The notes under the pieces: generated by a model
What the model saw: only the letters and a program-made list of their open reading frames with translations
Told to the model about the DNA's origin: nothing
The model's database searches: none
Shown here: positions 321-47,195 of the stretch, piece after piece
Layout of the letters: each line of letters begins with the position of its first letter
Numbering within the stretch: position 1 is the stretch's first letter
Assembly (NCBI GenBank): GCA_028819575.1
Contig: JAPPLB010000012.1
Location: 1 to 56,633 of the forward strand
From: Bryobacterales bacterium
Lineage (GTDB): Bacteria > Acidobacteriota > Terriglobia > Bryobacterales > UBA6623
Direction: 5' to 3'
Length of the DNA stretch: 56,633 bases
Translations under genes and position numbers: made by a program

Positions 321-1505
321 ATGAAGATTCGTAATGTCCGAGTAACCGCACTGCGGTTTGTGTATCCCGAGGACGAGGCATTCCATTTTGCGGGCGGGCG
401 GTGCACGGGACGGCTGACCTGTCTTGTTCGCGTCGAGTGCGATACAGGCGACGTTGGTCTCGGTTCGGTTTACTCTCACCCGGACCTGGTACGGGCCATC
501 GTCGAAGACCAACTCAGCGACTTCCTCATCGGAGAAGATCCGCTAGAGGTCGAAACACTCTGGCGGCGCATGTACGGAGTAACGCGCTGGTATGGCAGAA
601 AAGGGGCGGCGGTATCGGCGCTGGGCGGAATCGACATGGCCCTCTGGGACCTGCGCGGCAAAGCGGAAGGCAAACCCCTGTATCAAATGCTCGGAGCGCA
701 ACGGGATTCGGTTCGCGCTTATGCAAGCGGACTGCTCTGGAAGCACGATCCCCGGGAGCTCGGTGACGAAGCCGAGCGACATCTCGCTAACGGTTTTCGT
801 GCCATGAAGACTCGTCTCGGGCGCAACTTCGAGTACGACTCGGAAGCATTGCACATCTTCCGCAAAGTACTGTCGGGCAAAGCGCGCTTGCACGTCGATG
901 GCAACGGGCGCTATTCACTCGAGCACGCACAGCGCATGCTCCCCGAGTTCAAAAAAACCGATATCTTCTGGCTGGAAGAACCGTTCCTGCCGGAGGATGT
1001 GGACAACTACCTGGCGCTGAAGCCCGCACTGGGCACTATTCCCCTGGCTGCCGGCGAGAACGAATTCGGGTTCCAGGGCTTTCGCGAGCTCATCGATCGC
1101 GGCATGGTGCATATCGTTCAGCCGGATTGCTGCCGCGCCGGAGGAATCAGCGAGTCACGACGAATCGGTGAACTGGCCGTCAAGGCGGGATTGCGAGTCG
1201 CACCGCACACCTGGAGCGACGCGGTGGCGCTGGTTGGCAACATGCATGTCGTGGCCTCGCTGCCGAACGCGATTTGCGTCGAAGTCGACCAGACGGGAAA
1301 TCCGTTCATCGACGAACTGCTCGTCAACCGACTCGTCGTTGTCGACGGCGAGATCGCCATGCCCCAGGGACCCGGGCTCGGGATCGAGCTGGATGAGGAC
1401 GTTGTCGAACGTTACGCCCTGCCGCCGGGCGAGCCGGTTCCCGAAGGCAACTATTCGGACATGGTGTTCGGGAGACGACACCACTTGCCGGCAGGACCTT
1501 ACTAG
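321..1505 (+). CDS. Mandelate racemase/muconate lactonizing enzyme family protein
   Basis: A 394-residue enolase-superfamily enzyme of the MR/MLE branch. These enzymes take a proton alpha to a carboxylate and usually dehydrate or racemise sugar acids. The active-site set is complete: KTR at residues 163-165, metal ligands D193 (VDGNG), E219 or E220 (WLEEP) and E246 (AGENE), and a general-base His at 296 (APHTW). There is no signal peptide, so it should be cytoplasmic, unlike three other MR/MLE proteins in this window. The length fits the family. The substrate cannot be read from sequence alone; acid-sugar dehydratase is the likeliest class. Its TAG stop at 1503-1505 is also the first triplet of a decayed family B repeat. 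It converges on the S41 protease gene. Confidence 0.9.
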   Translation: MKIRNVRVTALRFVYPEDEAFHFAGGRCTGRLTCLVRVECDTGDVGLGSVYSHPDLVRAIVEDQLSDFLIGEDPLEVETLWRRMYGVTRWYGRKGAAVSALGGIDMALWDLRGKAEGKPLYQMLGAQRDSVRAYASGLLWKHDPRELGDEAERHLANGFRAMKTRLGRNFEYDSEALHIFRKVLSGKARLHVDGNGRYSLEHAQRMLPEFKKTDIFWLEEPFLPEDVDNYLALKPALGTIPLAAGENEFGFQGFRELIDRGMVHIVQPDCCRAGGISESRRIGELAVKAGLRVAPHTWSDAVALVGNMHVVASLPNAICVEVDQTGNPFIDELLVNRLVVVDGEIAMPQGPGLGIELDEDVVERYALPPGEPVPEGNYSDMVFGRRHHLPAGPY

Positions 1506-1557
1506 CAGCCCGCCGCGCTTTTTCCTTCGCACCACGTGACTTCCACCACGGGCTGCT
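1503..1557. repeat. Family B element, internally deleted remnant
   Basis: A short imperfect palindrome begins TAGCAGCCCGCCGCG and ends CACGGGCTGCT, which are the two termini of family B with almost all of the interior missing. It sits between two convergent genes and supplies the stop codon of the upstream one. Confidence 0.6.
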
Positions 1558-1583
1558 CGCCGCGACCCGCCGCTACCGGCGGC

Positions 1584-5664: not shown

Positions 5665-5666
5665 CT

Positions 5667-7019: not shown

Positions 7020-7059
7020 TTACCTGCATTTTTCACCACGTGGCGAGAAATGCAGGCTA
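7020..7059. repeat. Family A solo palindrome (left and right termini joined)
   Basis: The left terminus TACCTGCATTTTTCACCAC runs directly into the right terminus GTGGCGAGAAATGCAGGCTA with no interior. This 39-40-base imperfect palindrome can fold as a hairpin. Its outer TA plus the next base gives the TAG stop of the ceramidase-like gene read on the minus strand, so it could also act as a transcription terminator. Confidence 0.75.
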
Positions 7060-8472
7060 TGAAATCAAAAGCCCCCGCACTGCGGTCGTCAGCAACTCGT
7101 CGACCTTCGGATCACACCAGGCGACGCTCACTTCGTAGCCTCCTTGCGGATAGGCTTCTTTCGTGGGGATGTACCAGGGGCCGTCGTCGCCATAAGCCGC
7201 GGTCGCGACAAACCGCTCGGGTCGCATCTCTTGCGCCCGCAACTGGTACTCGACAAAACATTCCCCAGGCAGATGCAGCATGGAAATGTCGTTGACTTGC
7301 AGGCTGCTGACGACGATGGGGTCCCCGCGGGCGAACCGGCGCAGGTAAGCCAAGGTGAACGAGGGACGATTGCGCTGTACGACGCTGCGGGACGGGTCGG
7401 CAATCCGTGCGGCGATCTCGCCGGCATCGAAACGGGGATGCGGTTCCGGCAGGAACGGCGCCGTGCGCCAGTCGATCGACTCGACAGGCTCCGGCCGGAG
7501 GTCCGCTTCCGAGAGGGTGATTGCCTGGTACATGCGTTCGGTCAAGACGCGGCGCATGGGCTTCGAACCGTCGTTATACTTGCCGGCACCTACATTGCCC
7601 CCACAGCCATTGAAATAGAGGTGCAGACAGTCCGGCTCTTCGCGCTGCCGCTGCCGGCGCGCCAAGCCGCAGAAATCGGCGCTGACGCGGCCGTCGCCGT
7701 AGTAACTCATCGGATGGCAGGCATAGTAGTGGCATGCCGCAACCTTCCTGTCGTTGTCGTAGAACGCCACGGTCTTCAGCCAAGGATCGATCACTCCCTC
7801 CGGCAAGCGATGATGCTCAGGATTGCGTGAACTGCTTCCCCGCTGTGTACCGACCTTGCCGTCAGGACCCAAAATCCGACGATTGGACGCGACCTTCTCG
7901 ACACGGACTTGCCCGTGGGCGACGGCGGTGACCTGCCGCGGCTGATTCAAGGCCTTTCTGACCGCGTCCTGGCTCCTCTCCACGCAGCTTTGGAAGAATG
8001 CGAGGTCGAGCGTCGGAGGCAGCTCCGGGTACTGGGCGACGATCTCCTGCGCGTCCAGGCAGGCGAAGGGCGCATTGTGCGGGTGCACGCTGTGGAGAGC
8101 GACCCGCTCGGGCGTCGTACCCGCGGCCTCGGCCAGCGCTTGACGCCAAGTGATGTGAGCGGCGTTCAGAATACCGGTCCAATCGACGACGCAGATCACG
8201 ATGGGCTTATCGAGACCCAACAACACGAACCCGATCCCCTCCAGAGGATCGTCCACTCCGACAACGGGCTGAATCCATCCGCCGCACAGGGAATGGCCCA
8301 GCGGCGGCGTGACGTCGAATCGGAAAGGACACAGGTGCAGCGTATTCATCGTCGTGTTCGAGCAACGAGCGGCCAGCAGGCCCGTTCCGGCCAGTGTTGT
8401 CTGGAGGAACGTTCGGCGATCGACGGCGCTTGATGCGGTTTCTCTTGCGTGGTTGTCTCTGACTGGCTTCAT
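7057..8472 (-). CDS. Neutral/alkaline non-lysosomal ceramidase-like hydrolase
   Basis: A 471-residue protein resembling the N-terminal domain of neutral/alkaline ceramidases. These are zinc amidases that cleave the amide of ceramides, but many bacterial homologues have unknown substrates. Family-like features are FDVTPPLGHSLCGGW near the N-terminus, HSVHPHNAP (probable zinc-ligand histidines), YYACHPMSYYGDGRVSADF and FNGCGGNVGAGKYN. A Tat-like leader (DRRTFLQTTLAGTGLLAARC) suggests export, perhaps as a lipoprotein given the Cys. I took the ATG at 8472; the GTG or ATG codons upstream add only a few residues. The TAG stop is inside a family A terminus. It could also act on another N-acyl compound. 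Confidence 0.8.
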   Translation of the reverse strand: MKPVRDNHARETASSAVDRRTFLQTTLAGTGLLAARCSNTTMNTLHLCPFRFDVTPPLGHSLCGGWIQPVVGVDDPLEGIGFVLLGLDKPIVICVVDWTGILNAAHITWRQALAEAAGTTPERVALHSVHPHNAPFACLDAQEIVAQYPELPPTLDLAFFQSCVERSQDAVRKALNQPRQVTAVAHGQVRVEKVASNRRILGPDGKVGTQRGSSSRNPEHHRLPEGVIDPWLKTVAFYDNDRKVAACHYYACHPMSYYGDGRVSADFCGLARRQRQREEPDCLHLYFNGCGGNVGAGKYNDGSKPMRRVLTERMYQAITLSEADLRPEPVESIDWRTAPFLPEPHPRFDAGEIAARIADPSRSVVQRNRPSFTLAYLRRFARGDPIVVSSLQVNDISMLHLPGECFVEYQLRAQEMRPERFVATAAYGDDGPWYIPTKEAYPQGGYEVSVAWCDPKVDELLTTAVRGLLIS

Positions 8473-8669
8473 GATGACGGATACTCCATCTGATCGCACA
8501 TTGGGGCGCTTTTTCGGAGCTTGCAGGTGCGCGGAGGTCGTTTTAGCTTCGTTTGACGGTTCTCAGCGGTGGTACACATGTCACTTTACACGGCCGGCTT
8601 CCAGATGCTGCATCCAATTGGTTCAGGTAATCATTAGAAACTCTTCACTGACAGTCCCACCAACGAGCC

Positions 8670-8852
8670 TAACCTGCTTTTCTCACCACCCGACGGCCGA
8701 AGCACGCCATACGGCCGCCAGGACTTCGTTGCGTTTGCTTGCCGTGCTCAACGTACTGGTCAAGTACGCCTGCGCGCGCCAAGCGGCGCGCGCCTCGTCC
8801 TGACGGCCCTCTCACGCACTTCGCCTCGCCACGTGGTGAGAAAAGCAGGTTA
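8670..8852 (+). repeat. Family A element, intact type copy (183 bp)
   Basis: The best-preserved copy. The outermost 20 bases, TAACCTGCTTTTCTCACCAC, are exactly the reverse complement of the last 20. The interior carries GACGGCCGAAGCACGC, the CTTCGTTGCG..TTGCTTGCCGTGCTC block, a GTACTGGTCAAGTAC imperfect palindrome and the CTCTCACGCACTTCGCC block. Both ends carry TA, as for an IS630/mariner-type target duplication. There is no ORF of its own. The remaining 8473-8669 and 8853-8994 show no convincing gene. Confidence 0.85.
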
Positions 8853-11790: not shown

Positions 11791-12630
11791 TCCGGCCAAC
11801 GTCTCGGCGCCGGGCGCAAGCCGCTGCTGAACGCCGTGCAGAGGGAACGGCTGGTATCGCTGTTGCTGGAAGGCCCTGAGGCGCACGGCTTCCCGACGCC
11901 GCTGTGGAGTTGTCCGCAGGTGGCTCGCCTTATCGGAGACGAGTTCGGGGTCGATTACCACGAAGGTCACGTCTGGAATATCCTGCGGGGGGATGTGGGC
12001 TGGAGCCCTCAACGTCCGGTCGGCAAGGCACGGGAACGCCACGAAGAGGCGATCCGCACTTGGAAGCGCAAGACTTGGCCGGGCCTAAAAAAAACCCGTA
12101 CCGAAGGGCACACCATAGTCTTCATCGACGAAAGCGGATTGAGTCAGAAGCCGCACCGCTGCCGCAGTTGGGCTCCGCGCGGGAAGACGCCCATCCTACA
12201 GTTCAACTTCAACTGGCAGAAACTTTCCGTCTAAGCGGGGCTGACGCTGCGCAACTTCTACTTCCGGCTCTATCCCGGCGCAATCCGCCAAGCCGAGGTA
12301 ATCGACTTTCTCAAAGCGCTCGTGCGTCACATCGAGAAACCGTTGCTGATCGTCTGGGATCAATTGACAGCCCACCTCAGCCGCTTGATGCGGGAGTTCA
12401 TCGAACTCTCCGAGGGGCACATCGTGACGGAGTACTTGTCGGCTTATGCCCCGGAGTTGAATCCGGTGGAATACATCTGGTCGTACTCGAAGCAGCACGA
12501 GCTGCCGAATGTTTGTCCCAAAGACTACGGGCAGTTGAGCCGGCGCGCTCGCCAGACGCTACGCCGCATGCAACGCGAACCGCGCTTAGTCACGGCCTTC
12601 TGGAAACAGTCTTCTGTTTGCTTCGATTGA
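11791..12630 (+). pseudogene. IS630-family transposase, 5'-truncated and with an in-frame stop
   Basis: This encodes a DDE transposase of the IS630 (Tc1/mariner superfamily) type, which inserts at TA. All three catalytic blocks are present: FIDESG (first Asp), IVWDQL (second Asp) and LNPVEYIWS (Glu). The upstream helix-turn-helix part starts only at GAGRKPLLNAVQRERL, so the first 40-50 residues are missing. A TAA at 12232-12234 interrupts the frame just after WQKLSV, while the same frame continues cleanly to the normal end at 12630. The gene is therefore dead twice over. It abuts the 5' end of malate synthase and forms the left border of the AT-rich kinase/TPR segment. Confidence 0.85.
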
Positions 12631-12730
12631 CGGGGTCTTATGCGTGACTTAATAATCCAGTGATGCCAGCAACAGATGAGACAGTACACCTGAACCGACT
12701 CGGGCTTCTCGCGCACCCGGCAACGGTAGC

Positions 12731-12871
12731 GACGAACTCAACCACATCGGCGGCTATGTCGATCCCATCGTGACCAATCGTTTGCGGATTCTTGCGACTC
12801 AGGAAAACACTCCTGTTCAAGACTTGCTCGAGGAAGGGCTGGAACTGAACTTTTGGATGTGGCAGGCTTGA
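12731..12871 (+). pseudogene. Ribbon-helix-helix antitoxin-like gene remnant
   Basis: An open stretch ending TGA at 12869-12871 reads GGYVDPIVTNRLRILATQ, then ENTPVQDLLEEGLELNF. This pattern (RLRILA..E.TTVQ.LL.EAL) is that of plasmid-type ribbon-helix-helix antitoxins. No ATG start is in frame and the C-terminus ends abruptly, so it is probably a fragment. It lies between the IS630 remnant and the kinase gene. The rest of 12631-12950 shows only the IS630 3' tail. Recognition rests on sequence feel alone. Confidence 0.45.
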
Positions 12872-12950
12872 CTTTGACACTTTTCATCACATCCTCCATT
12901 CCAGTCGTCAATTCTGAAAACGTTATAGTATCAATTCTAGGGGGTGTTTG

Positions 12951-14003
12951 ATGACTGCTGCCTCGAAGCTCATCGGTCTCACTCTGAATGATAACTGGCG
13001 GGTCGTCGAACACATCAAACGCCCTCCAGCCGGCACGGGTGGAACGTTTTCTCACAGTTATTTAGCGAAGAAGGGTGATAGAATGGCGTTCGTAAAGGCC
13101 TTCGACTTTTCAAGCGCCTTCCAGCCAGGTGCGAATACCCTTGAAATTCTCAGTCTACTCACAGCTTCCTATGAACATGAACGCGATGTGCTTGAGCACT
13201 GCCGTGGGCGGCGTCTTTCTAATGTTGCAATCGCCATCGGTCATGGTTATATATCCGTTCCCGATATGGGAATCATGGAAGGTCGGGTTTATTACCTTCT
13301 ATTCGAAAAAGCAGACGGAGATATCCGCTGCCAAATGGACGCTGCCTTTGCTTCGGATGATGTTTGGTGCATGTATGCACTTCGACACGTAAGTCTGGGG
13401 CTGTTGCAGATTCACCGGGAATTTATTGCGCATCAAGATCTCAAACCATCCAACGTGTTGTGTTATGGCGCGAAAGAGTTTCGAGTTTCTGATTTCGGTC
13501 GATCTTCTAGACGTAACCAGACGATTTGGCATGACGAACAAAACTTTCCAGGTGATAAAACGTATGCTCCCCCGGAATTGCTTTACGGGTATGTGGTTGC
13601 CGATTTTGTCCCGCGCTGAATTGGTACCGACCTGTATATGCTCGGTAATTTGGCTGCATTCCTTTTTACAGGCGTAAATGTCACCGAGTCCTTAATGGCA
13701 CGTCTTGCCCCACAACATCACTGGACCCGATGGAACGCGACCTATCAAGGTGTATTGCCTTACCTTCAGGAAGTGTTCGGCAGATTTCTGGAAGAACTCG
13801 GACCACGTCTGCAGAACCCCTTTGTTCGGGCAAAAATATTGCCGCTAGTCCAAGAACTGTGTAATCCAGATCTCTCTCTAAGAGGACATCCCAGGGGTCT
13901 CGGACGCCCTAATCAATACTCATTGGAACGCTACGTTTCTCAATTAACAAACACAGTTCAGATGCTCGAAATCAAGACAAAAGCTGAGAGAAGAACGGTA
14001 TGA
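12951..14003 (+). pseudogene. Eukaryotic-like Ser/Thr protein kinase, interrupted by one in-frame TGA
   Basis: A protein kinase domain. The Gly-rich loop is near residues 27-33, the ATP-anchoring Lys at 49 (FVKAFD), the catalytic loop HQDLKPSN at 161-168, DFG at 181-183 and the APE-like APPE at 206-209. After residue 222 the frame meets TGA at 13617-13619 and then continues in the same frame (IGTDLYMLGNLAAFLFTG, a normal kinase C-lobe) to 14003, giving about 350 codons in all. This fits a CGA-to-TGA change. The ATG at 12951 follows a GGGGG Shine-Dalgarno tract. The end overlaps the TPR gene by ATGA, so the two were translationally coupled. Base composition is clearly AT-richer than the flanks. 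Either the gene is dead or a truncated kinase is made. Confidence 0.8.
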
Positions 14004-15505
14004 TCACTTCTCCTTGGACAAGCCGTCGACTATTGATTCCACGGTGGCGTAGTCTCATCATTACCATCGGTGCTAATGAACTAGCGGCGCCGTATCCAAC
14101 CATAGTTTTGAGTGAGACCCCTGTGGTTTCATTTGACTTATTAGAAAAACTGGACTCATGGAGAGACAGTCCAAATGTAATGACAGCAGGTGAATTGGTT
14201 GGTTCTTCTTTGGTCGTAGCCCAAGAGAACAAAGCTGTAGAAGCTGCTCAATTCCTACTGTCCACTGAATCTTCAGCAACAGTTCCCCTGCGCAGGCTAG
14301 CTGCACTTGCATTACTAAGAGCTGGATTGGAGGAACATGTCCCAGTGGGACTGGAACTCAATCCTCAAGTCACTAAGCGCGGCTGGCGTAAGAGGACGCG
14401 GATGTACTCAACGAATGCGTTGGCATGGGTTGAGCTATCACTTCATGATCTGGTAATCGGCAAAAAAGAATCTGCGAAGCGATCCATGCTAGTCGCACTA
14501 CAGCTTGCGCCCACTAATCGCCACGTGCTGCGATCAGCCTCTAGACTGTTTCTTCACCTCGGTGACGCTGAACGAGCTTATGACACAATTGCCGACTGCG
14601 AGTCTATTTCATCAGATCCATGGTTGATTGCAGCCGAACTTTCCATTGCCAATCTTGCTGAGCGCAAGCCCCAAAATTTTGCACGTGGACGTAGTATTGT
14701 TGTGAAAGGAGGACTTGCGCCACGTCAAATTACTGAGCTTGCAGGGGCTATCGGAACGCTGGAACTGGTGGCAGGTCACCGCAGGAAGGCTCGTAAGTAT
14801 TTTCGCCAAAGTCTCATTGACCCGACTGGGAATGCTCTAGCTCAAGCAGAATGGGCATCACCTTTGTTTGGTTTTGAACTTGTTACCGCGCAACACCTAA
14901 ATTCAACTACAGAGGTTGACGAAGCAAAGGTTCTCCATCTCCTTCACAAAGAAAAATTCTCAGAAGTTCCAGATATGTGCCGACAGTGGTCTAACGCAGA
15001 GGGCTATGCCATTCGACCTTATGAAATTGCCTCATCTGCTACTGCTCTTGTTGGAAATCACAGTCGAACAATTGAAATTGTGAGAAAGGGATTGACCATT
15101 AAACCTAACTCAGCAGCTTTGCTCAACAATTATGCATTTGCTCTTTCTCATACAGGGAAACTAAATGAAGCAGAGCATGCCCTAAGAGGTATCCAACGCG
15201 AAAATGAGCTAAATTGGCTGGTAAGCGAAGCGAATCGAGGTCTTTTGGCTATGCGACAAAAAAACCACGTTTTAGGCTTGACCCACTACAAGAGGGCAAT
15301 AAATGGCTTCAGTAAGAAAAAAGATGAACGCTCCGCTAATATTGCACGCATCTATCTTGCGCGGGAGGCCGCCCTGGCGAACATTCCGGAGGCTGAAGCA
15401 CTGATCAAGAATGCCCGTGCAGCAATAAGTCGTCTGAATACTAGCACACATAATCATGTTATTCAGGAGGCGGAACAAGCTTTAATATCTCCTCTCGTGC
15501 TGTAA
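14000..15505 (+). CDS. TPR-repeat protein paired with the kinase
   Basis: A 501-residue, mostly helical protein. TPR-like pairs are visible in the middle (GKKESAKRSMLVALQLAPTN, then a LHLGDAERAYDTIAD helix) and near residues 370-440 (NSAALLNNYAFALSHTGKL, then AEHALRGI). It has no enzymatic motif, signal peptide or membrane segment. Its ATG overlaps the kinase stop (ATGA), so it is the second gene of a two-gene operon. It is likely a scaffold or partner of the kinase, or its sensor. Codon usage (many AAA, AAT, TTA) differs from neighbouring GC-rich genes and suggests transfer. I cannot match it to a named defence or signalling family. Confidence 0.75.
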   Translation: MITSPWTSRRLLIPRWRSLIITIGANELAAPYPTIVLSETPVVSFDLLEKLDSWRDSPNVMTAGELVGSSLVVAQENKAVEAAQFLLSTESSATVPLRRLAALALLRAGLEEHVPVGLELNPQVTKRGWRKRTRMYSTNALAWVELSLHDLVIGKKESAKRSMLVALQLAPTNRHVLRSASRLFLHLGDAERAYDTIADCESISSDPWLIAAELSIANLAERKPQNFARGRSIVVKGGLAPRQITELAGAIGTLELVAGHRRKARKYFRQSLIDPTGNALAQAEWASPLFGFELVTAQHLNSTTEVDEAKVLHLLHKEKFSEVPDMCRQWSNAEGYAIRPYEIASSATALVGNHSRTIEIVRKGLTIKPNSAALLNNYAFALSHTGKLNEAEHALRGIQRENELNWLVSEANRGLLAMRQKNHVLGLTHYKRAINGFSKKKDERSANIARIYLAREAALANIPEAEALIKNARAAISRLNTSTHNHVIQEAEQALISPLVL

Positions 15506-15573
15506 TTAGGCCCGGTAGCCTGCGGTTGCCTCTCGGAGCTTCTGCTCTGCCCCTATTGGAAGAATTGTATCTT

Positions 15574-15684
15574 TTGAGCCGGCGCGCTCGCCATGTGCTG
15601 CGCCGCATGCAACGCAAACCACGCTTGATTACCGCCTTCTGGAAACAGTCTTCTCTTTGCTTCGATTGACGGGGAATTATGCGA
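15574..15684 (+). mobile_element. IS630 3'-end fragment (second copy)
   Basis: About 110 bases match the 3' end of the IS630 gene at 12535-12645 in the same orientation, from TTGAGCCGGCGCGCTCGCC through GAAACAGTCTTCT to the TGA and the tail CGGGG..TTATGCG. The two copies differ by scattered substitutions, so this is an old duplicate. It bounds the kinase/TPR segment on the right. The rest of 15506-15921 has no recognisable gene. Confidence 0.8.
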
Positions 15685-15921
15685 GGATCAATAATTATCG
15701 AACTGATCTCCGTGTCAAGCCATGACTACATCGAAACCTACGCACACTTCGGCTTGAGCAAGCGCCGACATGCCAATCAATGAGAGCAGATGGTTTGCAC
15801 TTGCGGCCGATATCGGACCGCTACTCCTCGTCTGCGGTCAAGTACCGTTAGGGAGCGGCATGCATTGACCTTGCCCTCAAAAGCTGATCCATGGGAAGTA
15901 AGGGTTGCCCGGCGGGCACAT

Positions 15922-18900
15922 CTAGATAAACAGTCTGTAGTCATAGGACGCTGCACCGAAGCGTTGAAGCAGGGAGCCGATTTTTGCGATTTCACCGGAA
16001 GATCCCAACGTGGACGGTAGTTTCGTATAGAGATCGAAGGTGTTCCAGTTCATCTTGGATAGACCAAGGATCTCAGCAGAAAGCTTCTGAAGAGGCGTCG
16101 ACCCAGCATGGCGTCTAATCATAAGGGGCGCCGGGATACGCCTCTTTCCCTGAAAATACTTGCGGTGGGGATTGAGCGCCGTCGTCGCACCGTGGACCCA
16201 GAGCAGCGCGCTGTAAGCATCGAGCTTCATCACCGTGCCGCGCCGGACCGGGAAGTTATCCTCATCGGACGTACCATCAGGTTTCTGAACCGAGGCGACG
16301 TAACGTAGTGCGTGGTCGATCTGGATTTCAAGCATGTCGATGCACCCGATACCGTTCAGGCCGTCGCGGAATCCCTCACGTTCTTCTTTGGTGAAGTGCG
16401 TGCGTTTGTGAATTACGACCCGATCGGGAAGTGTCGTACGGGCATCGAAAAAGAGCTGACGGATAGTTTCACCAACGCGACGCGCATCATCCGCGGACAT
16501 GAAGGGATTGCCACGGCGGATGATCGGGTCCTCGATCTTACTGAGTCGATACTGCAAGCCTTCGCCCCGAGCACTGTAGATATGACTGCATCCCAGAACA
16601 ACGTGGTCGCCTCGCTGAGCATTGTGATCTATGCTGAATCCGAGACCGACAAAAGCTGCGTCATCGGCAAGGTTGTCGAGAACCCACGGTGTGCGCATAC
16701 CCTTGACGTACAGAGCCAGAGATAGCCACCACCAGATACGGCACTGATAGCTGTCCGAAAGCGTATTCTGATTCAGGAACTGCGTGGCAATGCCGCGCTG
16801 GACGCAGTAGGCTTTTACGAAATTATGGAGGTCGAAGCTTTCGGATTCAGTGCTGTAGCTGCGGAAGGACTGCCAACGATCGGGAATGTAGATCAGCACG
16901 ACATCGGGCGCATGCGAAGCCTGCAGCGACTCAATGCTCCGGTTAATGAGGCGTGCCGCGTCGATTGCTCCCTGAACCGGATTGTGCCTGGAAGGTTCGG
17001 GACAAGTAATCCATCCGACTGAACCCGGCGCAGGCAATTCGGCCGGCAGCCCATAGGCCATCTGGAATCCAGGGTAATCGAGCAGGTAATCCCGCTCCGT
17101 CGAGCTGGGGGTGAATACTCGATGAATGGATTGAAGATAGGAATGAAGCGTTTGAGCTTCAGTTTCTGGACAGACAACGCCGATCCGTAGAGATGATGAA
17201 AGGCCGCGGGAGGTCAGCGGATAATCATAAGGCCGGTGATTCAGGATTCCGCGGATGGGGTGCGTATCCTTGACTGGAGCAGTCCCGGCCTTGTTCGAAA
17301 ACAACAGTGACGGTTCGGCAAGCTGCACGCCACGGTGCTTGATGAGCGACTGCATCCGTTGCGGCACATGCACGCCACGGTTGCCCGACGGTAACTCGAT
17401 TGCAGCGAAAATCGGTGCTCGGCGCACCCGGAACTTAAACGTGGAGCCGGAATTGTGGGGAAACGAAAACACGGCCGTTTGTCCATTGGGAAACAGTATC
17501 TTGCGCCATTTATTGACAGCTTTGTTGAAGGGTTTGTTGTGCTGGTAGCCGAGAATCTTAAGCTTGATCGGGTTGACGACTTCAGGCGGCGGTTCGACCC
17601 CGGTCTGGTCGAACACTCTCAGGGATGGCTTAAGGACAAGATGCTGGACCCCGCCTATGTTCCGCAAGGAAATCCCGGCCGCCTCGTGCACAGAATAGTT
17701 GGTGCTGCCGTGGCGGACCCTGCGAAAGTCTCGGGATCGCCAGAGTAACTTGGTGCCGTCGGTTTCCACACCGGCACTGTCGGCCATTGACCGGACGAGG
17801 GCTTGGCGCATAAGGGAGACAACAGCACCGTCTTCATGGCGTAGGTCTTCTGGGGTGACGGGTGAGCGCTCAATCGAGCCCTTTAAGTTGTCAGTGAAGG
17901 CATCGCGAATATCTTCGATGGTCCCGAGCGCCAGTATTTTTCTCAAAGGCACTGCAACAAGCGGTCGCTCGCCTGCCGTCTCGCGCAGAGAGGCCCAGAC
18001 TCGCTCTGTCGGCCAGAACTTCAGGTCGAACTGTAACACCTCCGTTGGACATTCAATTTCAAAGGCGTTGCTTTTGATGAGCGTGGCATCGGTGAACTGA
18101 GGGATCTGAAAAGACTTGCGGTGGAGCAGGTCTTCCGACGCCAGTGCCGCAATACATTGCCTGGCGGCCTCACGCTTTTCACCATGAATACAATGCAGTG
18201 CAAGGCGCGTCATCAGATCGTCGAACCCGAGTGTCGGCACATAGTAGGCTTGGCGCCCATGATCCCGCGCGTGGCGGATCAGAGAAATCACATGGTCGGG
18301 GTGGTCGCCGTCACTGAACCCGCACCAGAAAAGGCTGCCAGCCCCAGGTGTGGCATAGGCCGCATGTAGGGCATCCATGACGGACCGGTCGCGCCCACTG
18401 TAGCCGACAACGATTAGCGGCGTTGTCCGTGTCTCTTCGATCAGAGCCTTACGGAGCCCTGTCTCCTGAGTCTGAAGCTCTTCAGGCGTGTTCTTCAGCG
18501 CGTCGTAACGATAATCTCCATGCAAGGAGACGCAGAGAAGCTCACCCTGAGATAGCTGACGCGTGAGGCGACGCTGGCTATCGATACCGACCTCAACCGG
18601 AGTCAGGCTAAAGGTCGCGGCGGCACGGGCGACAAGACTGTCGAAATTGGTCGACCAGACAGAGCGAATAAGATTGGCCTCCGCGAGGTGGCAGAGAAGC
18701 TGATAGCCGACATGCGGGCGTGCTTTGCGAACCTTGTTCTGAAAATAGCCGCGCCGGTCTTCTGCGATAGGGAAACACTGCTCAATGAAAAAGCCGTACT
18801 CGTCATGTGCGCCATCTGGCGGAAAGCGGCCCTGCCCGTCGAGCCACTGTTGAATCCTGCGGCGAATGCCGGGCAGGGAAAGCTCAGCAAACTGATCCTC

Positions 18901-19116
18901 GAGGCCGGGGTTGTTGGTGAGAAAAATGCTGCGCTTCCACTCCCAAATGCACGTTTGTGCCGACGGGATACCCGAACTGATCGAGGCACCGGCCCCAACA
19001 AAGACAGATAGCGGTCCGGTCCGCCTGATACCGATTGATCTGACGAAGGCATCGAGCGACAGGTCAAAGACGTCCTCGCTACCTTGTTGCGGAGGCTGAC
19101 TGGCTGCCTGGGTCAT
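15922..19116 (-). CDS. Single-chain SIR2-APAZ-Argonaute (SPARSA-type short pAgo fusion)
   Basis: A 1064-residue fusion. Residues 1-310 form a SIR2 domain with GAGAS at 41-45, GIP at 49-51, TNFD at 156-159, LHG (catalytic His 199) and GYSGRD at 238-243. An APAZ-like region (about 330-620) and MID-PIWI (about 630-1064) follow. In PIWI the usual first catalytic Asp is apparently replaced (VGLGFS) and the RDG-type position reads HKRTHF, so slicing is probably lost, as in short pAgos. In characterised SPARSA systems, guide-directed target recognition switches on SIR2 NADase activity, depleting NAD+ and aborting infection. ATG 19116 has AGGTGG upstream; a TTG nine codons earlier is less likely. Most SPARSA are two genes, so the fused form is the less common one. 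Confidence 0.9.
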   Translation of the reverse strand: MTQAASQPPQQGSEDVFDLSLDAFVRSIGIRRTGPLSVFVGAGASISSGIPSAQTCIWEWKRSIFLTNNPGLEDQFAELSLPGIRRRIQQWLDGQGRFPPDGAHDEYGFFIEQCFPIAEDRRGYFQNKVRKARPHVGYQLLCHLAEANLIRSVWSTNFDSLVARAAATFSLTPVEVGIDSQRRLTRQLSQGELLCVSLHGDYRYDALKNTPEELQTQETGLRKALIEETRTTPLIVVGYSGRDRSVMDALHAAYATPGAGSLFWCGFSDGDHPDHVISLIRHARDHGRQAYYVPTLGFDDLMTRLALHCIHGEKREAARQCIAALASEDLLHRKSFQIPQFTDATLIKSNAFEIECPTEVLQFDLKFWPTERVWASLRETAGERPLVAVPLRKILALGTIEDIRDAFTDNLKGSIERSPVTPEDLRHEDGAVVSLMRQALVRSMADSAGVETDGTKLLWRSRDFRRVRHGSTNYSVHEAAGISLRNIGGVQHLVLKPSLRVFDQTGVEPPPEVVNPIKLKILGYQHNKPFNKAVNKWRKILFPNGQTAVFSFPHNSGSTFKFRVRRAPIFAAIELPSGNRGVHVPQRMQSLIKHRGVQLAEPSLLFSNKAGTAPVKDTHPIRGILNHRPYDYPLTSRGLSSSLRIGVVCPETEAQTLHSYLQSIHRVFTPSSTERDYLLDYPGFQMAYGLPAELPAPGSVGWITCPEPSRHNPVQGAIDAARLINRSIESLQASHAPDVVLIYIPDRWQSFRSYSTESESFDLHNFVKAYCVQRGIATQFLNQNTLSDSYQCRIWWWLSLALYVKGMRTPWVLDNLADDAAFVGLGFSIDHNAQRGDHVVLGCSHIYSARGEGLQYRLSKIEDPIIRRGNPFMSADDARRVGETIRQLFFDARTTLPDRVVIHKRTHFTKEEREGFRDGLNGIGCIDMLEIQIDHALRYVASVQKPDGTSDEDNFPVRRGTVMKLDAYSALLWVHGATTALNPHRKYFQGKRRIPAPLMIRRHAGSTPLQKLSAEILGLSKMNWNTFDLYTKLPSTLGSSGEIAKIGSLLQRFGAASYDYRLFI

Positions 19117-19760
19117 GGCGGGCCCACCTTTGAAACGAAGCAAACGCTGGAGGCCACACGCAATTCTGTCTCGGCGGCCCCCTTTTCATGAAACCACACG
19201 ATCTTCCTGACGGCACGGCGCACCGCTCAAAGCGGCTGAGAACCGATACTCGGGGCCCACTATTAACCAAAATCAGGTGACTGAAGGTCTTACTGAAATT
19301 TCCTGCACAATCCTTAGTGGATCGAACCAGCTCTAGTGCTGCCGAGTACTTGCAGCAGCAGGCCAGGCTATTGAGTTAAGTGGGGAATGATCGCGCACAG
19401 CGAGAAGATCCGGCAGCAGATCAGGGAGTAGGCACGACGCAAACCGAAATGTGAATATGGCCCGAGCCGGTACAGAGTTTATACCTAAAGTCACCTCGAT
19501 GTGCCCCCCGCATTGGCACCTTCAAGTGTCCACACATGTGGCAGGCCTGCTCGCTGTAGGTCCTTTGGCGGGCAAGTCACGAGGCACCTCGCCGGCTACC
19601 ATGTATAACGACTAGCCTGAGGATTCTGCATCTGCGAATTGTCACAGTGCTGCCATCACCATCGACGACAATATGCCACAGTCTCTTTCGCTGCGGCCGA
19701 CGGCTGCACTCGATTTAAGGACATCGATCTGGTGCTCAAACGCAAGCAGGGAGAAGAGCG
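19117..19760. other. Gene-free spacer between SPARSA and HTH gene
   Basis: This divergent region of about 640 bp should hold promoters for both neighbours, but I see no convincing -35/-10 pair. Just before 19761 a short frame ending in TGA at 19762-19764 reads FKDIDLVLKRKQGEER and overlaps the HTH start as ATGA. This may be the tail of a lost toxin gene. The frame has a stop at 19606-19608. Confidence 0.5.
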
Positions 19761-20042: not shown

Positions 20043-20095
20043 CCTGCATATCTCAGTAGCTGACGGCCGAAGCACGCGATAAGACCACCTTGACA
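20040..20095 (+). repeat. Family A element, left-end fragment
   Basis: TGACCTGCATATCTCAG then CTGACGGCCGAAGCACGCGATA matches the left terminus and the first interior block of family A, with TA changed to TG at the tip. The tip forms the TGA stop of the HTH gene. The remainder of the element is missing. Confidence 0.6.
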
Positions 20096-20120
20096 GACCC
20101 GTTCGGGGCATCACAACGTC

Positions 20121-20150
20121 TTGCCTTCGAACCGGTTGCCTTCGAACCGG
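20121..20150 (+). repeat. Exact 15-bp tandem duplication
   Basis: TTGCCTTCGAACCGG occurs twice in direct succession, each unit carrying a TTCGAA palindrome. It lies about 70 bp upstream of the restriction-modification gene and could be an operator or simply slippage. Confidence 0.85.
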
Positions 20151-20222
20151 CGGCTTGATTATGTTGTGTTGTCTTTGCCCAAGAAATTAGCGATGGCACC
20201 GCGCTCCATCCAGTGATTGCGC

Positions 20223-26436: not shown

Positions 26437-26444
26437 ACTGCCGC

Positions 26445-37180: not shown

Positions 37181-37523
37181 GATCCCAACCTCCGACCCTG
37201 CCGATTTCACAGCCAGCATATCATAGGCATGCCCCCCTTTCGGGCCGCAGACGGATCCGGTCAGCCCATGAAGATCGAGCTTGCTTTCAAGCGGAGTCGG
37301 TTGGCCAGAGACGACCCCTCGACTGAGCCGAGTGTTCAGCGCTCCTCGTCCGGAGCAGCATCCGTTGGCCGGCTATCGACAAATTGAAATCCTACGGAAA
37401 CATCTGATAAGGTTTGTTGGCGGGAATGAAGCCGCCAACAGCTCGAGCCGGGTTGTCGATGCTGGTTCGCGCTGTCAGGTTCAACCGCTGAGCAATTCGA
37501 TCCCACGACATAGGAGCCATGCC
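37181..37523. other. Gene-free spacer between msrP and the DUF465 gene
   Basis: About 340 bp with no recognisable gene, repeat or RNA. An open frame continues upstream of the DUF465 start, but its residues look random and it has no ribosome site. Confidence 0.6.
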
Positions 37524-37757
37524 ATGGAAACAGTTCCGCCAGAGGACATATCTGCTCGTCTGATGGAGAGCAACGAAGAGTATCGGATACTCGCGCGGAA
37601 GCACTCGCACTACGATCGTCGACTTGAAGAGTTGAGCGCCCGACGGTTCCCCTCCACGGACGAGCAGGTTGAGACACAGCGTTTGAAGAAACTGAAACTA
37701 CAACTCAAAGACCGCATGCACGCCATCTTGCGGGAACATCAAGCCCGCGCGAGCTAA
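37524..37757 (+). CDS. YdcH-like DUF465 small coiled-coil protein
   Basis: A 77-residue protein of the DUF465/YdcH type: LMESNEEYRILARKHSHYDRRLEEL, in part, then TQRLKKLKLQLKDRMHAIL. Two helices should form a coiled-coil hairpin. The function of the family is unknown. TAGGAG precedes the ATG. The TAA stop is the first triplet of a family A element. It sits just upstream of the psd-pssA operon but is separated from it by that element. Confidence 0.85.
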   Translation: METVPPEDISARLMESNEEYRILARKHSHYDRRLEELSARRFPSTDEQVETQRLKKLKLQLKDRMHAILREHQARAS

Positions 37758-38021
37758 CCTGCATTACTCACCTCATGAGGGCCGGAGCACGCGATCAAAG
37801 GCCGTGATTTGTGTTTCGTGACCCAAAAACCCAAGCAGGCGGCACGGCCGTTGCTCCAAGGCAGCTTGCGTCAAGGCCATGTTTCGGGAAAGCCTTTCTG
37901 CGTGTTTCGTGTTTCTTGACCCGAGGAGTGAAGGTGGCGATTTGGCAAGTACGGCTGCGCGCCTTGTCCTGACAGCCCTCTCACGCACTTCGCCTCGCCA
38001 CCTGGTGAGACATGCAGGCTA
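37755..38021 (+). repeat. Family A element, full copy (267 bp)
   Basis: The left terminus is TAACCTGCATTACTCACC and the right terminus is CCACCTGGTGAGACATGCAGGCTA. The interior has GGCCGTGATTTGTGTTTCGTG, a second TTTCGTGTTTC tract, GGCAAGTACGGCTGCGCG and CTCTCACGCACTTCGCC. It lies 55 bp before psd and supplies the DUF465 stop. Confidence 0.8.
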
Positions 38022-38076
38022 ACGGACTCCGCGCTCCGACTGCACGCCAAACGACTGATATGATGGAGCGTCGGTT

Positions 38077-39590: not shown

Positions 39591-40130
39591 ATGGGCCCTT
39601 GCCGCCGCAGCCGTGTTTCGGCTGTAGTCACTCTGCTCGTCCTTCTGTCAACGTTCACCTCGTGCGGCTACCGGCTTGCGGGAAAGGCTGACACCTTGCC
39701 GGACACCATCGGGGTCATCGCAATCCCCCCGTTTCAAAACCAGACCGTAGAGTTCAAGATCGAGCAACACCTCACCCGTGCGGTCACTCGCGAGTTCATC
39801 AGCCGTACACGATATGACGTTGTCACCAACGAAGCCCTCGCCGATGCCGTCCTCACAGGCACGGTGGTGAACGTACTGGTATTCCCACTGGTCATCGATC
39901 CCAGACTGGGGCGCGCCACGAGCGTCGGGACCATGACGCAGATCCGTATCTCGCTGCGAGACCGAAAGACGGGCAAAGTGCTCTATGACAACCCGAATCT
40001 CGAACATCGCGAGCGCTACGAAGTCAGCACGGATCCGGACGCGTACTTGGAAGAGCGGGAGCTCGCCTTGATGCGTACCAGCGAGGCAACGGCTCGCAGC
40101 ATCGTTTCGGCGGTGCTCGAAAGGTTCTAA
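39591..40130 (+). CDS. lptE: LPS-assembly lipoprotein LptE
   Basis: A 179-residue outer-membrane lipoprotein that plugs LptD and helps insert lipopolysaccharide. The signal peptide VVTLLVLLSTFTSC ends in the lipobox Cys, followed by GYRLAGK. The body has VIAIPPFQNQTVEFKIEQHLTRAVTREF and LTGTVVNVLVFPL in part, typical of bacterial LptE. It sits between pssA and holA; lptE-holA-rpsT is a common neighbourhood. The TAA stop coincides with the degraded left terminus of a family A element. This is the clearest sign that the organism has an LPS outer membrane. Confidence 0.88.
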   Translation: MGPCRRSRVSAVVTLLVLLSTFTSCGYRLAGKADTLPDTIGVIAIPPFQNQTVEFKIEQHLTRAVTREFISRTRYDVVTNEALADAVLTGTVVNVLVFPLVIDPRLGRATSVGTMTQIRISLRDRKTGKVLYDNPNLEHRERYEVSTDPDAYLEERELALMRTSEATARSIVSAVLERF

Positions 40131-40319
40131 AGCATGGCTCACCGCCCGATGGCCGAAACACGCGATACGACCGCCATGACTTTACTTTTCCTTCGCAACG
40201 CTTGCTTGCGGTGCTCGATGTACTGTCAAGTGCACCTGCGCTCACCAGGCAACTCGCGCTTTGTCCCGGAGAGTTTTTTCACGCACTTCTTCTTTCCAAG
40301 TGACGAGACATGCAGGCTA
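40128..40319 (+). repeat. Family A element, diverged full copy (192 bp)
   Basis: The left end is TAAAGCATGGCTCACCGCCCGATGG and the right end AAGTGACGAGACATGCAGGCTA. The interior keeps CTTCGCAACGCTTGCTTGCGG and a GTACTGTCAAGTGC palindrome. Its left end gives the lptE stop; the ATG in its right end (40310) is in frame with holA. Confidence 0.75.
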
Positions 40320-41403: not shown

Positions 41404-41418
41404 AGGAGAAGCAGGCTA
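41404..41418 (-). repeat. Family A terminus fragment
   Basis: GGAGAAGCAGGCTA is the tip of a family A terminus in the 36-bp gap between the convergent holA and rpsT genes. Its TA and the next base form the TAG stop of rpsT. Confidence 0.55.
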
Positions 41419-41694
41419 GTCGGAGGCGGCCTTCGAGAGAACGTTCACCTTGCGCGTCAGCCGAGACTTCATTCGAGATGCCTTGTTCTTCTTGATAACG
41501 CCCTTCTGTACAGCGCGGTCGATGCTGCTGACCGTGTCAGGCAGTTCTTTCTGCGCGTTCTCGCCGTTGCCGCCAGCGATGGCTCCAGTGAGTTTCTTGA
41601 CTTGCGTACGAAGGCGTGCCCGGTTGCGGCGGTTGACGTTGGTCTGCCGCCTGGTCTGGCGAATACGCTTGATTGCGGATTTGGTGTTGGCCAT
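41416..41694 (-). CDS. rpsT: 30S ribosomal protein bS20
   Basis: A 92-residue ribosomal protein that binds 16S rRNA early in 30S assembly. MANTKSAIKRIRQTRRQT opens the protein, followed by the long basic helices (NRRNRARLRTQVKKL, then KGVIKKNKASRMKSRLTRKV). The ATG at 41694 is set by the conserved MANTKSA start. A good sigma-70-type promoter lies about 50 bp upstream. The TAG stop is at the tip of a family A terminus, and the C-terminus looks normal, so the insertion left the protein unchanged. Confidence 0.96.
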   Translation of the reverse strand: MANTKSAIKRIRQTRRQTNVNRRNRARLRTQVKKLTGAIAGGNGENAQKELPDTVSSIDRAVQKGVIKKNKASRMKSRLTRKVNVLSKAASD

Positions 41695-41744
41695 GGAAGA
41701 AAGACGAAAGAGCACACGCTCCCCAAGGCGCGTACTCTCTATCC

Positions 41745-41773
41745 AGCATAATGACCTCACCAATGGCTGTCAA
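41745..41773 (-). promoter_or_regulatory. Sigma-70-type promoter for rpsT
   Basis: On the minus strand, TTGACA (41768-41773) is followed after exactly 17 bases by TATGCT (41745-41750). This is close to the consensus -35/-10 pair, placing the transcript start about 45 bases before the rpsT ATG. Confidence 0.75.
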
Positions 41774-41794
41774 CGAACACGGCCGGCAGCGGGG

Positions 41795-42061
41795 TAGCAG
41801 CCCGTGGCAAAAGTCACGCGGGCGGCGTTACGCGCCCCGGCGCCATTGGCGTAACGCCTAGCCGTCCCGGGAACGTGGCGCAGCGTTCTCCGCGCAGCCG
41901 AGCGGAAGCGGCGCGTAACCCTTCGGGCGACGGACATTTGCAGTCGTCGGCTTTGTCGTTCGTCGGAGGAGATCACCCGGGTCGGAAGTCCCCCTCACTC
42001 CGCGCCGTGGATGAGCAGGAGCCCGCCGCGCCTTCCACGGGACCTTTACCACGGACTGCTA
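41795..42061 (+). repeat. Family B element, full copy (267 bp)
   Basis: The left terminus is TAGCAGCCCGTGGCAAAAGTC and the right terminus (read on the minus strand) TAGCAGTCCGTGGTAAAGGTC, an inverted pair with a few mismatches. The interior has GGCGGCGTTACGCGCC, GTAACCCTTCGGGCGACGGAC in part, and GTCGTTCGTCGGAGGAGATC in part. TA at both tips. The right tip is the TAG stop of the ThuA gene. Confidence 0.85.
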
Positions 42062-42928
42062 GCGGAGACTCGTTGTATCCGCGCCGGGAAAGTCTTCCGG
42101 GACGGCTTGCGTGACCTTTCCCGTGGCCGCCCATTCGGCGCCGCGCTGCAGCGTCGTGATGAAACCGACGCACTGCATCGCCAGAGTGTGATGGCCCAGC
42201 GTGGTATGGAAGACGCGTCCCTTGCCGTACTGAACGGTCATCAAAATCGGCTCGTGCTTTCCCGTGCCGCGAGTCGATGGATCAGAATACGCCGTAGCGA
42301 GAACCGTCAAGTTCTCGGCCGGGCCCCGGAGACGGTCGTAGAGTTCATCTTCCGCATGCATCCATTTCAGAGGGAGTCCCCGCGTGATGGGATGCCCGGT
42401 GTCGCGGACGATGATCTGGAACGCGTGCCTCGTTCCGTGGCTGCCGCCGCGTCCCGGCGTGGCGTCCTGTACGATCTCCCCGTCGCGATAGCGCACATAG
42501 GGTCCCCAGGCTTCGTTGCGCCCGCCCCAGCCGCCCAGACCGATCATGCGGTTGTATTCCTTCCATTCGGGGAAAGCGTTGTTGGCGGCATGCACGGAAA
42601 CGAATCCACCGCCGCCGCGGACATAGGCTTCCAAGGCGGCCTTGGTCTCGCGCGGCCAGGGTTCGCCGTTGTAATTCGAGACAACCACCTGGTAGGCGTC
42701 GAAGTCAGGCTCGAAGGCGCTCAGGTCCTCGCCCTGCGGTGGTGAAGTGACGATATCAACGGCAAAGAGCCCGCTTTTTTCCAGAGCCTGCTTGATGCGG
42801 GGCGAGGTTTCCCGCCATTGGTGATTGTTCTGGCCATCGATCAACAGAGCCTTGCGCTGGGCGAGACCGTCCGGCAAGGAAACGAGCAACGCGAGAACGA
42901 TCCAGAAGCCTGATGAAACGTTGCGCAC
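42059..42928 (-). CDS. ThuA-domain protein (trehalose-utilisation-like), exported
   Basis: A 289-residue protein with a class I glutamine-amidotransferase-like ThuA domain. [35 protein letters not shown] and [18 protein letters not shown] are typical blocks. A signal peptide ([24 protein letters not shown]) predicts export. ThuA proteins were named from trehalose use in rhizobia; exported relatives are widespread in Planctomycetes and Acidobacteria and probably act on sugars, but the reaction is unknown. The stop codon lies in a family B terminus. It is divergent from the MR/MLE pair at 43061-45418. Confidence 0.87.
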
Positions 42929-45628: not shown

Positions 45629-46201
45629 TTACCGACCCACGGTCGCCAGGAAGCCCGCATAAGCCGCCAGCACGACACTCGCCGAAAGCGCGAAGCCAAG
45701 TATCATCACGGCTCCCGCAGCAAGCTGCTCGCGCGTCGAATCGTTGGCGAACCTTGGCATTCTGAAGTCATGCTCGCCTTCGGTATTGTCCGATTGACCA
45801 CCCGGCGACGCCGTCCGGATGCTCATCAAGCGCCTCAGCGCCCTGCGTACTCTGCCGCTGAGGCTGGAACCCACGATCAAGCCGACAAAATACGCGACAT
45901 CTCCATCGATTCCATTCGCTATGGCGAACGCCGGAGACATGGCAGCCCCAAATACAACACCACTCACGAACGCCATCTTGCGCCTGGTCCGCCCGCTCAA
46001 TTTCCTATCATCGGCGGCTCCGTAGTGCCCCAACGCCTCCATGACGACAGTGACTCCGATAGCGCCCGTTGCCAGGCCAAAGAAAAAGAGGGCCAGCCAG
46101 CCGGGTTCTCTGATCGACAGGAACATGTTGAAGGCTGTGAGGACACCGAAGACAAAGATCGCTGAATAATACAGTTGCCCTGGTTTCGAACTCTCCTTCA
46201 T
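45629..46201 (-). CDS. Hypothetical polytopic membrane protein
   Basis: A 190-residue protein with four predicted hydrophobic segments: LYYSAIFVFGVLTAFNMFL, WLALFFFGLATGAIGVTVV, a middle segment around GVVFGAAMSPAFAIANG and a C-terminal AAGAVMILGFALSASVVLA. A basic loop (SGRVRRALRRLMSIR) follows the third. I do not recognise a family. Upstream AGGAGGGTCAGATG-like sequence gives a good ribosome site for the ATG at 46201, which supports it as a real gene. It is isolated between gene-free stretches. Confidence 0.65.
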   Translation of the reverse strand: MKESSKPGQLYYSAIFVFGVLTAFNMFLSIREPGWLALFFFGLATGAIGVTVVMEALGHYGAADDRKLSGRTRRKMAFVSGVVFGAAMSPAFAIANGIDGDVAYFVGLIVGSSLSGRVRRALRRLMSIRTASPGGQSDNTEGEHDFRMPRFANDSTREQLAAGAVMILGFALSASVVLAAYAGFLATVGR

Positions 46202-46930
46202 CTGACCCTCCTTGAAACAGTAGTGCTGAGCTGGTGTATGGTCAGTACGTGATGATCAGGGTATGAGATGTACAGGCTCGCATATACGAGACGAGATGAT
46301 ATGTGGTACCGACAGACTCATGCAGATACAGCACCGCATCCCAGGTCAATCTTGACAGTTCGGCCGACGATGCCGCAAGCATCCACATTTACCCGTTGCG
46401 ACGTCTCTGTCAACATGTCAAAGAAGTAATGGCAAGCCATGGACGAACGACTGAGGCGTCAGCCTTGCTTCTCCCAGTACAGAGAATGGCAACAGTCCCC
46501 ATCGGGTGACATCTGTCAGGTGATTCCTGTTCCATCACAAGCTGAGGTGGCTACTGACTGGCTGGGCGGCGCGACACCGGGCCGGTTGGCAACCGGTGGT
46601 ATGGATCGGAGCAGAGCCGACACAGGGCTCAGCCTCTCGGTCTCGGGCAAGAGGGCGCGTCGTGATCTGGGCCTACGTATCCGAGGGCGCCCAAAACGCG
46701 CCAAGGAATCCGTTTTGTCAGGGTGGAAAAAAGGGGGGCTCCTGTCACCCATTTATTCATAAAGCGTTTGCAATATGTGGGTAACGTTACGCAGGGAAAC
46801 AGCAATAAAGTTCTTCTCGCGCGAGGTTAGAACTCGGCGAGACCTGACTGATACCCTGCCCGCATGCAAGATCTCTACCACCACGTTGATACTCAGATTG
46901 CTTGAAAGGACGCACTTGTACGAGGAGTAT
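46202..46930. other. Gene-free stretch
   Basis: About 730 bp between the membrane protein and a family B element. No frame looks like a protein, and I see no tRNA, rRNA or family A repeat. It may hold a decayed gene or an untranslated RNA that cannot be recognised by eye. Confidence 0.5.
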
Positions 46931-47195
46931 TAACAGCCCACGGTAATAGTCACGCGGGCGGCGTTACGCGCCGTGGGTCGATGGAGTAACGCTGGGTCGT
47001 TCGAGAAACATGGCGCTGCACCCTCTTTGCCGTTGGCCGGAAGTGGCGCGTAACCCTTTGGGCGACGGACATTTGCGCTCGTCGGCTTTGTCGTTCGTCG
47101 GAGGAGATCACCCGGATCGCCATCCTCCTCACTCCGCGCCGAGCGACCGCAGGAGCCCACCGCGCCGCCCACGGGACTTTTCCCACGGACTGCTA
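46931..47195 (+). repeat. Family B element, full copy (265 bp)
   Basis: It starts TAACAGCCCACGGTAATAGTC, carries the shared GGCGGCGTTACGCGCC and CGGAGGAGATCACCCGGATC blocks and ends CCCACGGACTGCTA. The right tip supplies the TAG stop of the RidA gene on the minus strand. Confidence 0.85.

Follow-up and report, generated by a model that had tools for sequence, protein, structure and literature searches.

Insertion sequences (ISs) of the IS1380 family have inverted repeats that begin with CC(T/C)G and duplicate 4–5 bp of target DNA; the ends of the piggyBac transposon start with CC as well. Short repeated sequences with inverted ends that are mostly intergenic and thought to be mobilized in trans include pneumococcal RUP and enterobacterial RU-1/ERIC, which insert at TA. 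At one gene end, RU-1 removed the stop codon and lengthened the protein (PMC2229807, PMC2759123, both in excerpt). A copy of the Coxiella element QMITE2 lies at the 3' end of enhC, and in one strain a stop codon stands just before the element (PMC5896051, in excerpt). Here we analyze two repeat families, A and B, that border stop codons in a 56,633-nucleotide stretch of a Bryobacterales bacterium (assembly GCA_028819575.1, contig JAPPLB010000012.1, positions 1 to 56,633; hereafter, the window) and in the genome to which it belongs. Family A resembles the IS1380 family (NF033539, PF13701) in its transposase family, CC(T/C)G ends and 4-bp duplication, and departs from typical members in that its copies are mostly transposase-free, 34 to a few hundred bp long, present in hundreds per genome and often located at stops. 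It is like RUP and RU-1/ERIC in being short, repeated, mostly intergenic, bounded by inverted ends and presumably mobilized in trans; unlike them, it duplicates 4 bp, and whereas RU-1 removed a stop, family A retains it. QMITE2 likewise sits behind a stop at a gene 3' end, but it is a single case with a protein extension in the other strain, and stop targeting is undescribed in the excerpted parts of that report (PMC5896051). Elements of this kind are known; neither docking at stop codons nor a raised stop turnover was found described in the open-access full-text literature searched under the terms used, and no passage returned there presents stop codons as an IS-family target.

We find that the four bases at which these repeats preferentially insert can include a stop codon, and that on insertion there the protein nearly always stays intact while the stop is often swapped. 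Family-A tips were defined by the core CCTGCATTTCTCACC with at most 3 mismatches, the reversed core serving as control; genome-wide, this gives 608 + 636 = 1244 tips in 5.37 Mb (reversed control, 0 + 2). Positions relative to genes were analyzed in 80 stretches plus the window, 1.54 Mb of the 5.37 Mb, with 1117 genes called by a self-made codon-usage caller. In this sample, 55 of 340 family-A tips lie at exactly offset 0 behind a called stop (TAG, 35; TGA, 13; TAA, 7), and every other offset from –60 to +60 holds at most 5; the reversed core gives 18 hits. The pile-up does not depend on the tip model, as the bare pentamer CCTGC stands directly behind the stop in 63 of 1115 genes, with 0–7 genes for any of the 14 offsets that follow. 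For comparison we used two genomes of the same genus, G002 (89–97% identity to the window in aligned blocks) and G001 (72–80% in its long matches). In G002, offset 0 holds 28 of 164 tips and the next offset 2. The initial annotation of the window had proposed that stop codons are safe harbours for such elements, or that the elements were selected as 3'-end punctuation, and had asked for a comparison with random TA sites. Among non-coding TA strand-sites of a 754-kb sample, 243 of 6375 (3.8%) are stops, versus 16% of tips; the frequency at stops thus exceeds that of intergenic TA sites, and the safe-harbour idea survives. The coincidence of element tips with stop codons is real and beyond chance.

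The effect on proteins was read from G002. Outside the window there are 61 stop-abutting sites (53 of family A, 8 of family B); 54 were located in G002 and 7 had no match there. A tip of the same family is present at 18 of the 54 and absent at 36, absence meaning none at the stop itself (site 45 has an A tip 9 bases on). In all 36 tip-free alleles the stop is at the same codon, and in a larger G002 set, with a tip in one genome only, this holds for 53 of 54 genes. The sole exception is C19:179074, one of the 7 sites first left unmatched and later placed with a longer query: G002 reads on (ACG CAG GCT), and in the genome studied here the tip directly follows the final codons ACC TAG. At some stops with a tip in both genomes (sites 13, 34, 41, 46), the two copies differ in type or orientation. 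The view that insertion leaves the protein unchanged is therefore borne out, and so is that of stop codons as safe harbours, nearly all stop insertions being protein-neutral.

Judged from sequence, family A is the population of miniature inverted-repeat transposable elements (MITEs) of an IS1380-family element present intact in the same genome, because contigs C109 and C121 carry intact IS1380-family elements with 492-codon frames, bounded by family-A ends and flanked by the duplications CTAA/CTAA and CTAG/CTAG. Their transposase scores 384.8 bits against NF033539 (cut-off, 180) and E 2.9e-148 against PF13701. The two copies have the end pairs CCCGCATTTCTCACC / CCCGGATATCTCACC and CCTGCATTTCTCACC / CCCGGATATCTCACC, both beginning CC(T/C)G, and family-A ends in general read CC(T/C)GCATTTCTCACC. 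In the loci of these intact copies (L133, 1257–2979; L136, 1256–2979), one diverged end, CCCGGATATCTCACC, is unlike the common MITE end. Fourteen more loci with related transposases, from the same genus and phylum, include three with clear ends and flanks: ATAA/ATAA, TTAG/TTAG and CTAA/TTAA.

The four bases outside the terminal CC are the target. Over the 340 tips these are most often CTAG (79), TTAG (39), CTGA (26), CTAA (23) and TTAA (16), with the consensus YTAR. The 4-bp duplication is exact in 28 of 100 element pairs of this genome (permutation mean, 10.9; maximum, 23 in 5000) and in 8 of 49 pairs of G002 (mean, 3.4; maximum, 9); for pairs of 160–215 bp, the figure is 30 of 102. Empty G002 alleles confirm a duplication of four bases: ATAA (site 5), ATAG (site 30) and CTAA (site 15). 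A TA target for family A was rejected on these alleles. The initial annotation had taken the elements for TA-targeting ones, IS630/Tc1-like, that restore a stop from TA plus their own first G or A. In favor of this, 75% of tips have T at –3, and 75% have A at –2. However, the duplications against empty alleles such as ATAA and ATAG are four bases long, the intact element with the same ends is IS1380, and, although TA insertion is expected to convert Tyr codons to stops, the stop is at the same codon in 53 of 54 alleles. We consider that reading extremely improbable: nothing is rebuilt from TA and an element's first base, as the whole stop codon lies within the 4-bp target.

A TAG or TAA stop together with the preceding base is an NTAR 4-mer. 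If tips are placed at random on non-coding copies of the same 4-mers, 24.7 (standard deviation (SD), 4.6) are expected to abut a stop, versus 55 observed. When only tips in gene tails count, up to 200, 100, 60 and 30 bp downstream of a stop, the expected number rises to 37.9, 41.4, 42.9 and 48.0 (SD, 4.8, 4.6, 4.1 and 3.5). The YTAR motif and the tolerance of gene tails hence explain most of the excess at stops, so no dedicated stop-codon recognition is needed. Called genes make up 81.6% of the bases but hold 29 of the 340 tips. The remainder fall in convergent (82 tips, 3.0% of bases), tandem (121, 9.0%) and divergent (68, 5.6%) regions and at sequence edges (40), which gives convergent regions roughly double the tip density of the other intergenic regions. 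We propose that an IS1380-family transposase mobilizes the family-A MITEs in trans. Insertion duplicates four target bases that follow the consensus YTAR, and a TAG or TAA stop joined to the last base of the preceding codon supplies such a target; the element then sits directly behind the retained stop, and the protein is unchanged. Selection would presumably act as a filter, removing insertions within genes and tolerating those in gene tails, convergent ones above all. We regard this explanation, taken as a whole, as highly probable. A target motif that stop codons meet is a route to hundreds of copies in a gene-dense genome at little harm.

The convergent bias could also be read as a sign that the elements were selected as 3'-end punctuation, acting as terminators or RNA stabilizers. 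Tips are inverted repeats, genes with a tip are convergent in 28 and tandem in 22 cases versus 320 and 502 for other genes (gap of at least 40, P-value 0.025), and a small excess at offset 0 is left over. The convergent excess is, however, accounted for equally well by tolerance. There is no end preference at stops (L ends, 24 of 122; R ends, 25 of 142; unclassified, 6 of 76), only 55 of 1115 stops have an A tip, and the sister genome G002 is tip-free at 36 of 54. Selected punctuation, the second suggestion of the initial annotation, is accordingly improbable.

Several points weigh against explaining the pile-up by IS1380-mobilized MITEs, a YTAR target and tolerated gene tails. In the four comparisons restricted to gene tails, the residual excess at offset 0 comes to about 3.6, 3.0, 3.0 and 2.0 SD. 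TGA stops lie outside YTAR and yet are used at 13 of the 55 sites. Exact duplications are seen at only the 28 of 100 and 8 of 49 pairs given above. The gene calls come from our own codon-usage caller. No family-B-ended element of 700–3500 bp that could hold a transposase was found in 1.54 Mb of this genome and 0.81 Mb of G002. Finally, plain insertion does not explain the raised rate of stop-codon changes at tips.

This rate was measured against G002, after exclusion of genes that lack a stop at the projected codon (18 of 372 controls and 1 of 72 with a tip). The stop differs in 28 of 71 tip-bearing versus 27 of 354 tip-free genes (P-value 1.6e–10). TAG–TGA swaps, each needing two changes, occur in 17 of 71 versus 6 of 354 (P-value 5e–10). 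Mean gene-end identity is 95.1% with a tip in one genome, 94.5% with a tip in both and 95.2% in controls. The duplicated bases are also unstable: over 25 insertions with a 4-bp empty site, 61 of 200 duplicated bases differ from the empty allele versus 44 of 400 adjacent bases (P-value 1e–8); these counts retain C161:59121, whose site in G002 is not truly empty but holds an element end. By class, the empty allele is matched by both copies in 3 of the 25 and by exactly one in 7; the copies match only each other in 7, and all differ in 8. In the one-copy class, for example, CTGA/CTAG occurs twice where the empty allele is CTAG, and TTAG/CTAC occurs where it is CTAC.

These patterns would follow if IS1380-type elements took along four flanking bases from the donor site. 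The transposon would import its 4-nt 5' flank, as piggyBac does with TTAA, and this flank would overwrite one target copy. Because such flanks often end in TAG, TAA or TGA, at gene ends this would swap in "portable" stop codons, selection keeping those flanks that still read as a stop. We advance this tentatively, as a real possibility that falls somewhat short of being the favored one, and it would add to the explanation by YTAR insertion and tolerated gene tails rather than replace it. The raised stop differences and TAG–TGA swaps at gene ends of control-like identity are consistent with it, as are the instability of the duplicated bases and the 7 of 25 insertions in which exactly one copy matches the empty allele. 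For these seven, sampling from the tip-flank pool fits better than mutation, by 3.4–6.8 log10 units depending on the assumed rate. CTGA, ATAG and GTAG tips number 81 versus 11 for their reverse complements. The partner flank duplicates the tip flank at 32 of 72 CTAA/TTAG tips and at 3 of 59 non-YTAR tips, and the partner of a non-YTAR tip is a YTAR 4-mer in 29 of 59. Even the lone truncation fits, with GCAG in G002 versus CTAG at the tip. In piggyBac, the 4-nt overhang stays on the transposon (PMC7351741, in excerpt). On the other hand, flank sharing among the closest element copies did not exceed chance in 7 of 8 tests, with a P-value of 0.046 in the remaining one; insertions in which the copies equal each other only or all differ make up 15 of 25; and swaps also turn up at 5 of 18 insertions common to the two genomes. 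Part of the pattern could stem from the decay of old insertions or from a single site gaining and losing elements repeatedly.

The predicted fold of the transposase is nearer Tn5 than piggyBac, which argues against flank carry-over as well. The model (mean predicted local distance difference test score, 74; from 11 sequences) aligns to Tn5 3ecp with Z 19.4 (318 aligned residues, root mean square deviation (rmsd) 4.8) and to piggyBac 6x67 with Z 11.9 (329 aligned, rmsd 6.3). Among the best 50 Foldseek matches listed, Tn5 is present and piggyBac absent; piggyBac appears in the second comparison. A sequence search with the transposase returned no solved structures up to E 1. IS1380 has been called distantly related to piggyBac (PMC10140906, in excerpt). 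The two share a 4-bp target, TTAA in piggyBac, which differs in being eukaryotic and strict for that sequence, and the traveling 4-nt overhang is demonstrated there whereas for family A we only infer it. If carry-over is right, a bacterial IS family shares the joining step of piggyBac, and stop swaps are a by-product legible in genome comparisons. Stop-codon turnover would in that case be driven by mobile repeats, which would also occasionally place a new stop within a gene. The raised stop differences at tips link transposition to changes of stop-codon identity that can be counted.

Of the called stops, 362 of 1008 are TAG in this genome; in G002 the count is 196 of 520, and in the few G001 stretches it is 14 of 30. 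The elements as the cause of this high TAG usage were rejected, G001 having only 8 + 10 tips. Frequent TAG stops look like a lineage trait.

In the window, the elements and the genes discussed below are as follows (elements have no strand).

321–1505, plus strand: MR/MLE enolase-like gene (PF13378/PF02746), stop TAG at 1503–1505 with a family-B relic directly behind
1506–1555: short family-B relic with a CAGCCCG tip; the inverted tip ends at 1555
7023–7056: 34-bp family-A palindrome adjoining the stop at 7057–7059 of the minus-strand gene 7057–8499
8673–8849: typical 177-bp family-A MITE, away from any called stop
19761–20042, plus strand: Cro/C1-type helix-turn-helix gene, TGA stop followed by a single family-A end
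20043–20096: single family-A L-end relic (repeat families D4/D10)
25134–25652: composite family-A insertion, not at a stop, with flanks TTAG and CTAT; the empty G002 allele is CTAG
26437–26499 (limits approximate): single diverged family-A L-end behind ilvD (26500–28236, minus strand, TAG)
37758–38018: family-A element of 261 bp with the CTAA duplication at 37754–37757 and 38019–38022; the left copy includes the TAA stop of a DUF465 gene (37281–37757)
40131–40316: decayed family-A element behind lptE (39591–40130), its tip displaced from the stop
41416–41763, minus strand: rpsT, ribosomal protein S20 (PF01649), with no element behind
41798–42058: family-B element with flanks GTAG (41794–41797) and CTAG (42059–42062), the latter including the TAG stop of a ThuA-like gene (42059–42928, minus strand)
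46934–47192: family-B element with flanks TTAA (46930–46933) and CTAA (47193–47196), the latter including the TAG stop of a RidA/YjgF-like gene (47193–47654, minus strand)

The initial annotation had listed nine coincidences of stop and repeat terminus. Seven stand, at 1505, 7057, 20042, 26500, 37757, 42059 and 47193; the one at 40130 is weak and the one at 41416 falls. By inspection of the window, family-B ends lie directly behind the stops at 1505, 42059 and 47193, and family-A ends directly behind those at 7057, 20042, 26500 (a diverged single end) and 37757. Tip-free alleles end at the same codon in G002 for 42059, 7057 and 26500, and in G001 for 1505, 37757, 40130 and 42059. The 1505 gene ends PAGPY* in G001, with TGA and without an element, and two codons later in G002, with TAG and then a B end. 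At 7057, G002 has the same TAG without the A tip, and a B element near by; at 26500, it has TGA with the tip absent. The 37758–38018 element is common to G002, and G001 has CTAG at this codon, tip-free. At 40130, the G002 tip starts 2 nt behind the stop and G001 has a tip-free TAA. At 42059, the empty G002 allele is CTAG with the same stop, which is also that of G001, tip-free. The stop at 47193 has been reused: a B element follows it in the window and an A element in G002.

For rpsT, G002 is colinear at the supposed tip and has no insertion (TTCGCTTCTCC versus CCTGCTTCTCC), so that the tip likeness at 41416 is due to chance. The normal C-terminus of rpsT, once cited in support of neutral insertion, is void as an argument since the gene carries no element; the S20 C-terminus itself varies (KAASD* in the window, KAASESSE* in G002, PAASA* in G001). 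The helix-turn-helix gene has no orthologue in the fetched G001 and G002 stretches. Window positions 11797–23665 (about 12 kb, this gene included) have no alignment longer than 400 bp at the syntenic place of the fetched G002 contig C5. An Rfam scan of the window gave no match at the gathering score.

Family-B tips in the 1.54 Mb are no more frequent than the reversed control at 5 mismatches (105 versus 128) or 4 (16 versus 16); at 3 or fewer they outnumber it (38 versus 0), with 6 at stops. Directly behind the stop, CAGCCCG occurs in 6 of 1115 genes of this genome and CAGTCCG in 3. Family-B flanks are YTAR-like at several sites. A third repeat tip, CCTGAAACATCC, is present at window positions 25274 and 28350, within composite repeats. 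As CCTGAAAC, it lies directly behind the stop in 6 of 1115 genes here and in 5 of 520 in G002.

In named assemblies, 92 loci were fetched by the exact pattern TAGCCTGCATTTCTCACC, and 24 of 165 tips adjoin a called stop, a count conditioned on TAG, which the pattern demands. For 36 of these loci a single pooled codon model was used, and 6 (1 of 23 tips) are probably from G002 itself. A search for an autonomous element between widely spaced tips in other organisms gave six loci; in four of them (L002, L009, L062 and L065), the open frames did not appear transposase-like by eye, with no family search made. Among the matches listed, the exact 18-base tip occurs in metagenome-assembled genomes named Deltaproteobacteria, Eisenbacteria, Verrucomicrobia, Gammaproteobacteria, Acidobacteria, Planctomycetota and others. 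One of these has a CTAG flank at 45 of 46 tips, the TAG being partly forced by the search pattern. In the genome studied here, among the first places listed, a family-A tip lies about 100 bases or less from the start or end of a number of contigs, and family-A repeats probably break the assembly at contig ends.

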